Source of the DNA: Thermocrinis ruber
GTDB lineage: Bacteria > Aquificota > Aquificia > Aquificales > Aquificaceae
Length of the DNA stretch: 64,000 nt
Reading direction: 5' to 3'
NCBI RefSeq assembly: GCF_000512735.1
Contig: NZ_CP007028.1
Location: 1,302,001 to 1,366,000 of the forward strand
Under the pieces are notes generated by a model, which made no database searches, was not told the DNA's origin, and saw only the letters and a list, made by a program, of their open reading frames with translations. How positions within the stretch are numbered: position 1 is the stretch's first letter; each line of letters starts with the position of its first letter. Both the position numbers and the translations under genes were made by a program. Shown here one piece after another: positions 1-4,934 of the stretch.

Positions 1-967
1 TAGGTGGCAAAAGGTTGGATGCCATAGCCAAATTCCACAGAAAGGCAAGGGAAAAGTTCATGGCTACACCAAAGAGCAGGAGCTTTCCTAAGGGTTCACC
101 CACCTTAACGGAATAGTAAAACAGCCTGCCCACCAGCAAAGCATAGAGCAAAACCACCATCATCACACCCAAAAAGCCCATCTCTTCTCCAATTATGGAA
201 ATAACATAGTCTGTGTCTGCCTCGGGCAGTGCACCCATTTTTTGAATACCTTTACCTATGCCCACTCCAAAGGGACCACCCTTAGCGAGGGCATAGAGGG
301 ACTGTATGATCTGATAGCCAGTATCCTCCGCGTCCGCAAAAGGGTCAATCCATGCAGATAACCTTTCGGATACATAACCCCTTTTTAGTAAAAAGAAGCT
401 AAAAAAGCCCACGAGGGCAATGGCGGGGATATAAAGCCGGTAGGGTATTCCACCCACATACATAAGGCTAAAGGAAAGAAGGAGTATAAACAAGGCACCA
501 CCTTTGTCCGGCTGTAAAACTAAAAAAATGGCGTGCAAAAGGACTATAAAAAAAGCCCAAGAGAAAGTCTTTATGCTTCTCAAAGACCCCTTGCTAACTA
601 TGTAGTAAGACAGAAAGATGATTATTGCTATCTTTGCAAACTCTAAAGGTTGCACACTGCCACCAAAAAGCCACCGCTCTACTGCTTTGCCGGAGATCAG
701 TTTTTTTACAAGAATAACAAATAGGGAAACCAAAGAAACGCCCACCAAAAGATATACATACTTTCCTTTAAATAACCTTCTGTAATCAATTTTAGCAATG
801 TAAAAGGAAAACAAAAGTCCCGCAAAAAAGACCACAAACTGTAAGACCGGTCTTTTCAGTGTTTGAACGTCAAACTCCGAAGCGGAAAGTACGTTGGCAC
901 TTATTATAGCGGTCTCCCCCATCAAAAAAAGCAAAACAACCGAGTAAAGGATCCATCTATCGGGCAT
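1..967 (-). CDS. ftsW: Cell-division SEDS protein FtsW (C-terminus outside window)
   Basis: About 322 N-terminal residues are visible; the rest lies beyond base 1. The protein is a polytopic membrane protein of the SEDS family (FtsW/RodA/SpoVE), which polymerises lipid II glycan strands at the septum. I translated it from the minus strand: repeated hydrophobic helices, then a loop with LPEADTDYVISIIGEE, the conserved SEDS loop, in the form usual for FtsW. The last visible residues (NLLPP) open the family signature that would continue outside. The start ATG at 967 overlaps the kdtA stop by 11 bases, so the two genes are probably co-transcribed and translationally coupled. RodA is the alternative identity. 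Confidence 0.78.
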   Translation of the reverse strand, partial: MPDRWILYSVVLLFLMGETAIISANVLSASEFDVQTLKRPVLQFVVFFAGLLFSFYIAKIDYRRLFKGKYVYLLVGVSLVSLFVILVKKLISGKAVERWLFGGSVQPLEFAKIAIIIFLSYYIVSKGSLRSIKTFSWAFFIVLLHAIFLVLQPDKGGALFILLLSFSLMYVGGIPYRLYIPAIALVGFFSFFLLKRGYVSERLSAWIDPFADAEDTGYQIIQSLYALAKGGPFGVGIGKGIQKMGALPEADTDYVISIIGEEMGFLGVMMVVLLYALLVGRLFYYSVKVGEPLGKLLLFGVAMNFSLAFLWNLAMASNLLPP

Positions 968-2030
968 CGCTTAGTATTTTATATAGGTTTGAAAGGTAGC
1001 ATTCCTTAACCTGCTTTGCAAAATCTTGCAGGTTAAAGTCTGGATATGCAAGCCTTCCCTCCAAAATCTCCTTTGCTATCACCACCGCTTCCTGAGGACT
1101 TATCACGTTAAAACCTAAATTCTTTGAAAGGATAAACTCTTCCAAATCCCTCACCTTGTGGGTGTGGGGACCAAACAGGACAAACTTTTTGTAATAGGCA
1201 GGTTCCAAGAGGTTGTGCCCTCCCACACCCTCCGCAAAGGTGCCACCCACCAAGGCCAAGTCTCCAAAGGCATAAAGATAAAAAAGCTCACCCAAGCTAT
1301 CCACCACAATAACCTGACAGTCTTCCCTGCTTTCACTCTTTAAACAAGGTTTGAACTCCTTAAACCCTTCCATAAACACATCCACCTTTGATACATGCCT
1401 TGGCACCACCACCAGATTGACTTGACCTATCTCCTCTAAAAGCCTTCTGTAAAACTCCTTCAAAAAGGGAAGTTCCTGCGGATGGAAGCTACCCGCCACT
1501 ACTGTCTTTCCCTCCCGGAGTGTTAGGGAGACCCTTTTCTCTTCCCTTTCCAAGACCACCTTTAAATTACCACAAGCTATTGCATTAACCCCATAGCCCT
1601 CAAAGATTTCTCTGTCTTTTTCCGTCCTGCATAGGATCAGGTCAAATTGCCTTGTAAGTACCCTTTCCCAAAAACTACCCTTTGCGTAGGCGTTGAGCAG
1701 AACCTTCTTTGCCTTTACACCTTTTAGCAAGAAATACCAAAGCTCCCTTTCCATGATCAAAAGGGCGTATGGATTTGCCTGTTTTTCAAAGAGTTTCACA
1801 GAAAGGGGATTGTCCAGAGGTAGCGGGTGCATTGCGTCGTAAAAACTTTCTTGAGTTTTCAGAAATTCCCTTGCCCTGGGCGAAAAATAGGTGAGCAGTA
1901 TAAAAAAGTCCTTTCTTAACGCTTTCAAGATGGGTTTGGCGGTGTTGAATTCGCCCACGCTGGCACAGTGAAACCAAAGGACGGGTTTTGTGGTGTTGAA
2001 CTTCAGCCTTGGAAATATTCTTTCAAACAT
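957..2030 (-). CDS. kdtA: 3-deoxy-D-manno-octulosonic acid (Kdo) transferase
   Basis: Transfers Kdo from CMP-Kdo to lipid A precursor at the inner membrane, an early step of LPS core assembly. 357 residues, slightly shorter than E. coli WaaA. The N-terminus WFHCASVGEFNTAKPI holds the glycosyltransferase-30 motif with the general base Glu. Later ILLTYFSPRARE, VVVPRH and GGTFAEGVGGHNLLEP match the GT-B C-terminal half. I chose ATG 2030 because the next residues fit the family N-terminus; longer in-frame starts would lie inside tRNA-Pro. There is no Shine-Dalgarno sequence, and mtaD ends at 2023, so re-initiation after mtaD is likely. The A of the ATG is the discriminator base of tRNA-Pro. Confidence 0.9.
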   Translation of the reverse strand: MFERIFPRLKFNTTKPVLWFHCASVGEFNTAKPILKALRKDFFILLTYFSPRAREFLKTQESFYDAMHPLPLDNPLSVKLFEKQANPYALLIMERELWYFLLKGVKAKKVLLNAYAKGSFWERVLTRQFDLILCRTEKDREIFEGYGVNAIACGNLKVVLEREEKRVSLTLREGKTVVAGSFHPQELPFLKEFYRRLLEEIGQVNLVVVPRHVSKVDVFMEGFKEFKPCLKSESREDCQVIVVDSLGELFYLYAFGDLALVGGTFAEGVGGHNLLEPAYYKKFVLFGPHTHKVRDLEEFILSKNLGFNVISPQEAVVIAKEILEGRLAYPDFNLQDFAKQVKECYLSNLYKILSDAR

Positions 2031-3375
2031 CGGGGCGAGGGGACTTGAACCCCCGACCTTCGGCTCCCGAAGCCGACGCGCCACCACCTGCGCCACGCCC
2101 CGTCATAAAACCCAAAATCTTTTCACGCCATTTTTGCGCCAAAAATTTTACCCTTTCTTGATCTATGGTCTTTAGTTCTCTCTTTTCCATAAGAATTTTT
2201 CCCTTGCATACTACCGTGTCAATATCCTCCGCATTGGCACTATACACCCACTGGGAGATAGGCTCATAAAGAGGTTGCCAGTGTGGTGCATCCGCATTAA
2301 CCAGTATAAAGTCTGCGTCGTAGCCTTCTTCTATTTTTCCTCCTTTTATGCCAACTGCACGAAAGCCGTTTTCAGTGGCGATCATCAAGGCGGTCTGTGC
2401 GTTCATAGCCTTTGCATCAAGGCTTGCACCCTTTTGCAGTTTAGCCATCAAGGACATTTCCTCGTGCATGTTTAGGTTATCGTTGGATGCTGGACCGTCG
2501 GTGCCGAGGCACACATGAATGCCCCTTTTAACATAATCCCAAATAGGTGCTATACCCGAGGCAAGCTTTAGGTTGCTCTCTGGACAGTGTAACACTTTAA
2601 CTTCCCTTTCTTTGAGTATTTCCCTCTCCTCTTCTGTGGTCCATACCACATGGGCACAGAGCCATCTTTGGTCCAAAATGCCCAACCTTTCCAAGTGCAT
2701 AACGGGTGTATTTCCGTAAGTTTCTTTTATCCTCTCCACCTCTTCTTGAGTTTCCGCCAAGTGGGTGTGAATATAAACATCCTCCTCCCTTGCGATTTCA
2801 TAAACTTTCCTCAGTGTGGAAGGTCCGCAGGTGTAGGGTGCGTGAGGGCAAAGAACGGGAAAGACAAGCTCTTCTCCCTTGAAAGCCTTCACAAACTCTT
2901 TTGCCCTTTTTATGTATTCCTCTGGCGTTTTTGCCACTTTGGTGGGAAAGTCAAGGATGCCAAAGCCAAGACCAACTCTCACTCCCACCTCCTTTGCTAC
3001 CTCCCCCACCACCTCTTCAAAAAAATACATGTCCATAAATAGGGTTGTTCCGCTTCTTATGCCCTCCGCTAAGGCTATAATGGTGCCATCTCTAACAAAC
3101 TCCGGAGAGACAAACTCTCCCTCCAACTTCCATATAACCTTCTGTAGCCAATCCATGAGAGGTAGGTCTGCACCGAGCCCCCTCAAAAGGGTCATGGGTA
3201 GATGGGTGTGCATGTTCGCGAAGGATGGGAAAAGTAGCTTTCCCTCTGCCCTTAGGACCTCTTTGGCAGGCTTTTCCTCCTCTCCAAGGTAGGCGATTTT
3301 GCCGTCCTTTACACCCACGTTCAGCTTTTTTCCAAGGGAGACTACAAAGGCGTCCTTTACAAGAAGGTCAAACAT
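2023..3375 (-). CDS. mtaD: 5-methylthioadenosine/S-adenosylhomocysteine deaminase
   Basis: Amidohydrolase-superfamily enzyme that deaminates methylthioadenosine and/or S-adenosylhomocysteine in methionine salvage. 450 residues. Metal site: HTHLP near residue 57, a central His (HTHLAETQEEVE), HCPESNLKLASG, and GTDGPASND with the catalytic Asp. The core ends at about residue 425. The last 25 or so residues (Gly/Ser/Ala/Arg-rich) are encoded by the tRNA-Pro gene, because the frame has no stop before or inside the tRNA and ends at TGA 2025-2023. The tail resembles no family sequence I know. It lies 5 bases downstream of kdsD and shares 8 bases with kdtA. With speD in this window, it fits polyamine and methionine recycling. 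Confidence 0.88.
   Translation of the reverse strand: MFDLLVKDAFVVSLGKKLNVGVKDGKIAYLGEEEKPAKEVLRAEGKLLFPSFANMHTHLPMTLLRGLGADLPLMDWLQKVIWKLEGEFVSPEFVRDGTIIALAEGIRSGTTLFMDMYFFEEVVGEVAKEVGVRVGLGFGILDFPTKVAKTPEEYIKRAKEFVKAFKGEELVFPVLCPHAPYTCGPSTLRKVYEIAREEDVYIHTHLAETQEEVERIKETYGNTPVMHLERLGILDQRWLCAHVVWTTEEEREILKEREVKVLHCPESNLKLASGIAPIWDYVKRGIHVCLGTDGPASNDNLNMHEEMSLMAKLQKGASLDAKAMNAQTALMIATENGFRAVGIKGGKIEEGYDADFILVNADAPHWQPLYEPISQWVYSANAEDIDTVVCKGKILMEKRELKTIDQERVKFLAQKWREKILGFMTGRGAGGGASASGAEGRGFKSPRPDV
2030..2102 (-). tRNA. tRNA-Pro (anticodon CGG)
   Basis: The cloverleaf can be drawn: acceptor CGGGGCG/CGCCCCG, D stem GCGC/GCGC, anticodon stem TCGGC/GCCGA with loop TTCGGGA giving anticodon CGG, and T arm with loop TTCAAGT. 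The discriminator base is A (2030), and CCA is not encoded: the bases after it are TG from the kdtA start codon. The gene lies inside the mtaD reading frame and abuts kdtA. Confidence 0.95.
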
Positions 3376-3380
3376 AACTC

Positions 3381-4352
3381 TTAGTATATCACCCCCGCAC
3401 GGAGTATATCGTGCATGTGTATTATGCCAATGGGTCTTTTCTCCTCATCCACCACAATGAGGACGGTTATCTTGTGGTCCTCCATTCTTCTTAGGGCTTC
3501 CGCTGCCAACTCCTCCATCCTGGCGGTTTTGGGATTTGTGGTCATGGCATCCCTAGCCAGACTGTTGTTTAGGTCCCCACCACGGTTTATGAACCTTCTG
3601 AGGTCCCCGTCGGTGATTATACCCACAAGCCTTCCCTCCTCATTTACCACCGCCACCGCCCCAAAGCCCTTGCTGGTGATCTCCACAATCACCTCTTTCA
3701 TTGAATCTGCTTCTTTAACGATGGGTACCTCTTCTCCCGTATGGCAGAGCTCTTTAACGAGCTTTAGCTTCCTACCCAATGCGCCCGCGGGGTGTCTGAG
3801 GGCAAAGTCCTTCTCTGTAAAACCTCTTAGCTCCAAAAGCACCATAGCCAAGGCGTCTCCCAAAACCAGGGCTAGTGTGGTAGAGGTGGTTGGCGCTAAG
3901 TTCAAGGGGCAGGCTTCCTTGGAAACTCCCAAAAATATATGTACATCCGAGTGCTTTGCTAAGGTGGAGTTCGGGTTGTTGGTAACGGATATGAGCTTGG
4001 TACCCAAGAGCTTTATGTACGGAAGGAGTGCCAAGACCTCCGCAGACTCTCCACTTTTGGAAAAGGCCAAAACCACATCCTTACCTTCCACCACTCCCAG
4101 GTCTCCATGAAGGGCCTCTGAAGGATGAAGATAGTGGGATGGCGTACCCGTGGAGGAGAGGGTGGATGCGACCTTTTGGGCTATGTGTCCTGACTTTCCG
4201 ACACCCGTGGTTATAACCTTTCCCTCACAGTTCAGGATAAGCTCAACTGCCCTAACAAAGGAATGGTCTAACCTTTCCGAAAGTTTTGAAAGCTCTCGTG
4301 CTTCCTCCTCTATTACCCTTTTAGCCTTACGGATGATCTCCTCAGGGTTCAT
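3381..4352 (-). CDS. kdsD: Arabinose-5-phosphate isomerase
   Basis: Converts ribulose-5-phosphate to arabinose-5-phosphate, the first committed step to Kdo for LPS. 323 residues, the normal length. The N-terminal SIS domain (about 35-170) has [21 protein letters not shown], followed by [11 protein letters not shown]. Two CBS domains follow, at about 205-262 and 270-323 ([20 protein letters not shown]). Its ATG overlaps the ppa stop by 4 bases (ATGA). Lying in the same transcript as kdtA, it supports a Kdo/LPS function. Confidence 0.93.
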
Positions 4353-4882
4353 TCACTCTTTTTCTTGTAGTTCTCTATGCCCTTTTTGATCTCATCTATA
4401 GCGAACTGCACACCCCTGAACCCTTCCACTTTTACCCACTTGCCCGGTTCCAGCTCCTTGTAGTGCTCAAAAAAGTGCTTGATCCGATCCAGCAGTGCCT
4501 TGGGTAAATCATCCACGCTCTTTATCTCGTCAAAGGTTGGGTCTATCTTTGAGTGGGGCACCGCTATAAGCTTTGTATCTACACCTTCTTCGTCCCTCAT
4601 CTCCAAGCCACCTATAGGTCTGCACCTTATCACACTACCAGGTGCCACAGGATACCTTGATATTACCAAAACATCCACCGGGTCCCCATCGTCCGCCAAG
4701 GTCTGAGGAATAAAGCCGTAGTTGAAAGGATAATGCATGGCTGTAAATAAAAACCTATCCACAAAGACTGCACCCGTTTCCTTGTCCAGTTCATACTTTA
4801 TAGGACTATCCTGGGGGATCTCAACGACCACGTAAATATCCTCTGGTGGGTTCTTGCCGGCGGGTATCTTCTTTATGTCCAT
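4349..4882 (-). CDS. ppa: Inorganic pyrophosphatase (family I)
   Basis: Soluble Mg2+-dependent hydrolysis of pyrophosphate to phosphate, pulling biosynthetic reactions forward. 177 residues, typical of bacterial hexameric PPases. It shows the family-I signature [10 protein letters not shown] with its metal-binding Asp residues, plus YNYGFIPQT-like and [10 protein letters not shown] substrate-binding segments. I chose ATG 4882 because GGAGGAG lies 5 bases upstream; an in-frame ATG-like extension 11 residues longer would run into the promoter. First gene of the minus-strand ppa-kdsD-mtaD-tRNA-kdtA-ftsW run. Confidence 0.95.
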
Positions 4883-4903
4883 CTTTACTCCTCCGAGAGC
4901 AAT

Positions 4904-4934
4904 ATTATACCTCAACGCAGAATTATGATATAAT
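4904..4934. promoter_or_regulatory. Divergent promoters for ppa and the tRNA-tuf operon
   Basis: Minus strand: perfect TATAAT at 4909-4904, predicting a start near 4898 and a 16-base ppa leader with a Shine-Dalgarno sequence. Plus strand: perfect TATAAT at 4929-4934, predicting a start near 4941, just before tRNA-Thr. No good -35 hexamer is seen for either, and the two promoters must overlap. Confidence 0.65.

Follow-up and report, generated by a model that had tools for sequence, protein, structure and literature searches.

The closest described counterpart of the locus analyzed here comes from Alphaproteobacteria, in which the tRNA-Sec gene (selC) is nested in the selB open reading frame (ORF) and the stop codon of that frame overlaps the start of the next gene (Mukai 2021, PMC8124441). 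No tRNA nested in a bacterial ORF had been reported before, according to that paper, which proposed alternative fates, as tRNA or as mRNA, for the selB/selC transcript (PMC8124441). A second related system is the tRNA punctuation of animal mitochondria, including tRNAs located inside coding regions, where a polycistronic transcript is cut, the nested tRNA and the mRNA compete, and excision frees usable mRNAs. The usual tRNA-mRNA operons of bacteria (for example, thrU-tufB and secG-leuU of Escherichia coli) also carry both kinds of RNA on one transcript, from which RNase P frees the tRNA; their coding regions exclude the tRNA, and processing cuts no ORF. For the Aquificales, no reports of tRNA/ORF overlaps were found in the literature searched, which is not proof of absence.

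In this work, we describe a tRNA-Pro(CGG) gene of Thermocrinis ruber that lies entirely within mtaD and shares its discriminator base with the start codon of kdtA. The window, that is, the whole stretch of 64,000 nucleotides that was analyzed, corresponds to positions 1,302,001-1,366,000 of a single-contig genome of 1,521,037 bp, labelled G000. The genes are arranged on the minus strand in the order ppa, kdsD, mtaD, tRNA-Pro(CGG), kdtA, and ftsW/rodA, and neighbors in this run overlap or sit 5 nt apart. The features, in window coordinates and in the order of transcription, are as follows:

4349-4915, minus strand: ppa, inorganic pyrophosphatase, first gene of the run
3381-4352, minus strand: kdsD-like arabinose-5-phosphate isomerase gene, upstream in the same run (TIGR00393 above cut-off)
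2023-3375, minus strand: mtaD, ORF of 450 aa including the tRNA-encoded tail, amidohydrolase of MTA/SAH deaminase-like type
2103-2105, minus strand: TGA abutting tRNA-Pro, out of frame for mtaD, at the position of the in-frame mtaD stop of sister lineages
2026-2103, minus strand: MtaD tail, 26 codons consisting of the tRNA, 1 nt before it and 4 nt after it
2030-2102, minus strand: tRNA-Pro(CGG), 73 nt, discriminator A at 2030, CCA not encoded (ARAGORN and Rfam)
2023-2030, minus strand: mtaD/kdtA overlap of 8 nt, including the mtaD stop TGA 2025-2023
957-2030, minus strand: kdtA, Kdo transferase (family searches), ATG at 2030-2028 with the discriminator base as its A
2-967, minus strand: ftsW/rodA-family gene, overlapping the end of kdtA and leaving the window

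An earlier note on this DNA had proposed that mtaD is read through tRNA-Pro, and the observation was confirmed. ARAGORN and Rfam (61.2 bits) agree on the limits of the tRNA (2102-2030, minus strand), and the mtaD ORF (3375-2023) is free of stops both ahead of and throughout it, terminating at TGA 2025-2023. In MtaD, the Amidohydro_1 domain covers residues 48-395, and NCBIfam matches end by about residue 421. The tail, estimated in that note at about 25 residues and measured here as 26, is tRNA sequence read as protein (TGRGAGGGASASGAEGRGFKSPRPDV), with the predicted tryptic peptides GAGGGASASGAEGR and SPRPDV. The note was also right in placing the kdtA ATG on the discriminator base and in finding no Shine-Dalgarno sequence ahead of it (GGTTCAAGTCCCCTCGCCCCG-ATG). 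The kdtA frame is likewise open over the entire tRNA, back to TGA 2105-2103, and includes GTG codons at 2096, 2087, and 2084. These were rejected as kdtA starts: none has a Shine-Dalgarno sequence, and the one at 2084 is not conserved in the related genome G002. Since the upstream GTG codons lack such a sequence, ATG 2030-2028 remains the best candidate start. As separate observations, all three sense frames of this tRNA are open, and its position 21 is G in G000, G001, G004, and G005 instead of the nearly universal A, which is present in G002.

This junction resembles selB/selC in several respects. The entire tRNA lies in the 3' end of a same-strand upstream ORF, the host stop codon overlaps the start of the next ORF (here by 8 nt), and the protein tail is translated tRNA, in our case as predicted from the sequence. 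In both systems nesting is conserved, with a stop before the tRNA in some relatives (here five nested genomes against ten with such a stop). Unlike SelB, MtaD, as an amidohydrolase, does not work with the tRNA nested in its gene; a functional link between host and tRNA is a feature of the published selB case rather than of nesting as such. Further differences are that the nested gene encodes an ordinary elongator tRNA, that the kdtA start codon takes the discriminator base itself, that several such overlaps occur within one Thermocrinis genome, and that processing is predicted to depend on the protein-only RNase P known as HARP and not on an RNA-based RNase P.

The same readthrough is present in five genomes (G000, G001, G002, G004, and G005). 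All three other nested genomes that extend past the tRNA (G001, G002, and G004) also have the kdtA ATG starting at the discriminator base; the G005 contig stops with the tRNA, and that of G006 stops before the junction. The named relatives, whose MtaD proteins are 96-98% identical, are Thermocrinis MAGs. In G002, MtaD is 83% and KdtA 61% identical to the proteins of the window, and the junction is kept. Thus, the comparison of relatives that the earlier note had called for reveals a geometry conserved in the nested Thermocrinis genomes. A sequencing or assembly error that conceals an mtaD stop, named there as a possible refutation, is conceivable for any sequence in general; it is refuted here by the frame shared with four further genomes, among them MAGs that were assembled separately, and we assign it a negligible probability. 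Such conservation excludes an error and gives no proof of selection.

In ten genomes of sister lineages, mtaD is likewise followed by this tRNA-Pro, and its stop codon precedes the tRNA by 0-1 nt; the stop directly abuts the first tRNA base in nine of them and is separated by a 1 nt gap in G010. In a tree of 31 MtaD proteins, the nested genomes share a single, fully supported branch. Four nested genomes carry a TGA in the abutting position, out of the mtaD frame, and their mtaD is about 20 nt shorter near the tRNA junction, as if after a frame-shifting deletion. The out-of-frame TGA at 2105-2103 is possibly a relic of the sister-type mtaD stop; a TGA also precedes tRNA-Pro(CGG) away from mtaD in G007, G011, and G017. 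In the tree, G007 is the nearest neighbor of the nested clade, and its mtaD is not followed by this tRNA. The adjacency of mtaD and tRNA-Pro is likely, though not proven, to be ancestral. With the sister stop 0-1 nt ahead of the tRNA and all nested genomes in one clade, a single frame-shifting change would be the simplest origin of nesting. The mtaD-tRNA-Pro junction of a MAG labelled 'Acidobacteria bacterium J001' (RFFP01000012.1) groups with Aquificaceae; this bin is probably mislabelled or contaminated.

The earlier note had allowed that the openness of the tRNA might be due to chance, and the tRNA set of the genome agrees with this. Of the 43 tRNAs, 27, 10, and 23 lack a stop from end to end in the respective sense phases, the last figure being that of the mtaD phase. 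Openness was therefore rejected as a sign of selection, and that of mtaD alone is unremarkable.

A scan of all 43 tRNAs of this genome revealed four that overlap an upstream gene. Overlap counts cover Aquificaceae genomes; surveys of four relatives comprised 30-33 tRNAs each, with most long-variable-arm tRNAs missing. Some of the genes involved are those that we take, from recognition of their sequences without a family search, to be lpxK, prs, dcd, and dut. Besides tRNA-Pro, the overlapped tRNAs of the genome are:

L116:1155-1228, G000 about 565554-565627: tRNA-Gln(TTG) inside ispE
L125:1208-1293, G000 about 1004407-1004492: tRNA-Leu(TAA) inside a pabC-like aminotransferase ORF
L106:1249-1322, G000 about 256849-256922: tRNA-Thr(CGT) overlapped by pnp

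In this genome, the ispE gene traverses the whole of tRNA-Gln and stops 15 nt past it, ahead of prs, with APDFGSGGSWFESR as the predicted IspE tail peptide; the readthrough is common to the entire genus (seven genomes). Outside the genus, ispE stops at a TAG formed by tRNA-Gln nt 8-10, giving a 10-nt overlap in all seven genomes sampled (G007, G008, G010, G011, G012, G014, and G016). The pabC-like gene of this genome runs through tRNA-Leu and stops 4 nt past it, ahead of dcd; the nesting is present in G000, G001, and G004 and absent in G002. The pnp gene terminates on a TAG at tRNA-Thr nt 9-11, ahead of dut; this tRNA is overlapped in G000-G004, G006, G007, G012, and G016, with a deeper stop in G003 and G012, and by 2 nt only in G005. 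An lpxK-like gene stops on a TAA at tRNA-Lys(CTT) nt 36-38 in G003 (L235), G002 (L284), and G016 (L307), an overlap absent from the window's own genome. The TAG common at tRNA nt 8-10 thus provides a stop codon, already in place, for an upstream gene whose own has been lost, and entry into the tRNA in another phase allows a gene to run through.

The fate of the nested tRNA depends on how it would be released. The geometry established above entails, as the earlier note had argued, that excision deprives mtaD of its stop and breaks up the kdtA ATG: precise removal leaves mtaD ending ...TTTATGA, with no stop, and kdtA starting TGTTTG, minus its A. In this respect the junction is unlike mitochondrial punctuation, since the flanking ORFs are broken. 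The genome shows both marks of HARP-type 5' processing of tRNAs: HARP is encoded (PF08745, 2.3e-68; TIGR03875 above cut-off), and a genome-wide search limited to class A gave no match to class-A RNase P RNA (RF00010). The gene for tmRNA is present. A canonical RNase Z was rejected, as the search yielded only a weak metallo-beta-lactamase match (47.6 bits, with the cut-off at 293); a 253-aa metallo-beta-lactamase protein comes closest to a candidate for cutting the tRNA 3' end (L222:1063-1824, G000 about 1207107).

A HARP-associated RNA ligase is also encoded (TIGR01209, 406.6 bits; L325, G000 337094-338179), near the gene for tRNA-Lys(CTT) rather than next to that for HARP. It raises the idea that the tRNA is excised in the manner of an intron, with ligation of the flanks joining ...TTTATGA to TGTTTGAA, restoring the ATG and fusing mtaD to kdtA in frame. 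The presence of such a ligase (PMC12153264) favors this reading, as does the arithmetic, which fits in G000, G001, G002, and G004 (A at position -1; 73 nt equals 1 modulo 3). However, an A precedes 34 of the 43 tRNAs and the frame fits in one third, so chance alone would make about a quarter of junctions compatible, and the roles that the ligase report considers, circularization of small RNAs among them, do not include the joining of mRNAs (PMC12153264). We regard intron-like excision with ligation as highly improbable.

The explanation that we favor, and consider probable, is that the overlap is inherited from tight gene packing, and that translation and slow tRNA processing compete for one transcript or use it successively. 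In the ancestor of the nested Thermocrinis clade, mtaD would have lost its stop and then run through an open tRNA phase. The tRNA is most likely made from a ppa-kdsD-mtaD-tRNA-kdtA-ftsW/rodA operon transcript, as tRNA and mRNA share a transcript in thrU-tufB and secG-leuU. Ribosomes finishing mtaD, with its stop 8 nt inside kdtA, would probably enter kdtA directly. The lack of a Shine-Dalgarno sequence at kdtA, against the purine-rich leaders of dut and prs behind two of the other overlapped tRNAs, fits such translational coupling. While a ribosome passes, tRNA-Pro could not be folded; once folded, its 5' end would be cut by HARP and its 3' end by another activity. Cutting would end the life of the mRNA and leave a nonstop mtaD message, which tmRNA could rescue, together with a headless kdtA message. 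As in mitochondria, a nested tRNA and an mRNA would compete for a polycistronic transcript.

A ribosome needs seconds to cross 73 nt. HARP of Hydrogenobacter prefers a native precursor that, like the nested tRNA, lacks CCA, cutting it about tenfold faster than a precursor with CCA, but even then its rate in vitro is only about 0.58 per minute (PMC10652100). HARP being slow relative to the ribosome, one or perhaps several rounds of translation can precede processing of the transcript, so that one RNA could act as mRNA first and as tRNA later. The statement in the earlier note that each transcript is either tRNA or mRNA is therefore unsupported as worded, given the rate of purified HARP on a native substrate (PMC10652100), and the first interpretation is partly supported.

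The shared transcript has to be weighed against a promoter inside mtaD that would make tRNA-Pro and the mtaD-kdtA mRNA mostly separate, hardly competing transcripts. A TTGACA-16-AAAAAT site at 2222-2195 speaks for such a promoter, which the earlier note had named as a second possible refutation. Nevertheless, four promoter-like sites in the mtaD 3' region compare with 2.5 +/- 1.4 expected, so the count is near chance, and the best site is unconserved (TAGACA...AAAGGT in G002). No clear reduction of synonymous change is seen around the 3' end of mtaD, and a separate precursor would still leave a cleavable tRNA within the long mRNA. Mostly separate transcription is thus unlikely, and a non-consensus tRNA-Pro promoter may exist.

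The other point on which readings diverge is whether competition between tRNA and mRNA has been selected. Processing by HARP against translation could act as a switch that sets the amounts of MtaD and KdtA, so that the metabolism of Kdo/lipid A and of methylthioadenosine would follow growth rate or the demand for tRNA. In favor of this reading, excision would put both ORFs out of action, the junction has been maintained across 61% KdtA identity, tRNA/gene overlaps recur in the family, and the same model was put forward for selB/selC (PMC8124441). On the other hand, MtaD and KdtA have no functional link to tRNA-Pro, the overlapped genes are unrelated to one another, and sister lineages manage without nesting. 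Only a handful of single changes in the final mtaD codons ahead of the tRNA could bring a stop back, so nesting can persist without selection and may be neutral. Recurrence in functionally unrelated genes points to packing rather than to a gene-specific switch, which we consider quite unlikely. A broader form of the idea is that selection keeps Aquificaceae tRNA genes (Pro, Gln, Leu, Thr, and Lys) in the 3' ends of operon genes, where HARP processing would irreversibly end mRNA life and place a tRNA-timed limit on upstream proteins family-wide, with the kdtA start disabled in addition at mtaD-kdtA; this seems to us distinctly improbable. Gene packing with a shared transcript, probably without a dedicated regulatory role, remains our preferred explanation.

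What is new in comparison with the described systems is the recurrence of overlaps over unrelated genes in a HARP-using family and a start codon placed on the discriminator base. The family offers a series, from a stop before the tRNA, through a stop on the TAG of nt 8-10, to a tRNA fully inside the ORF, in which a protein gene can be watched growing into a tRNA. Even without regulation, annotation should expect protein tails translated from tRNAs, and these should be directly detectable by proteomics of thermophiles. If the transcripts act as mRNA before they yield tRNA, maturation of the tRNA would in itself terminate the mRNA in a free-living bacterium, and such a step would reach beyond mitochondria and selenocysteine.
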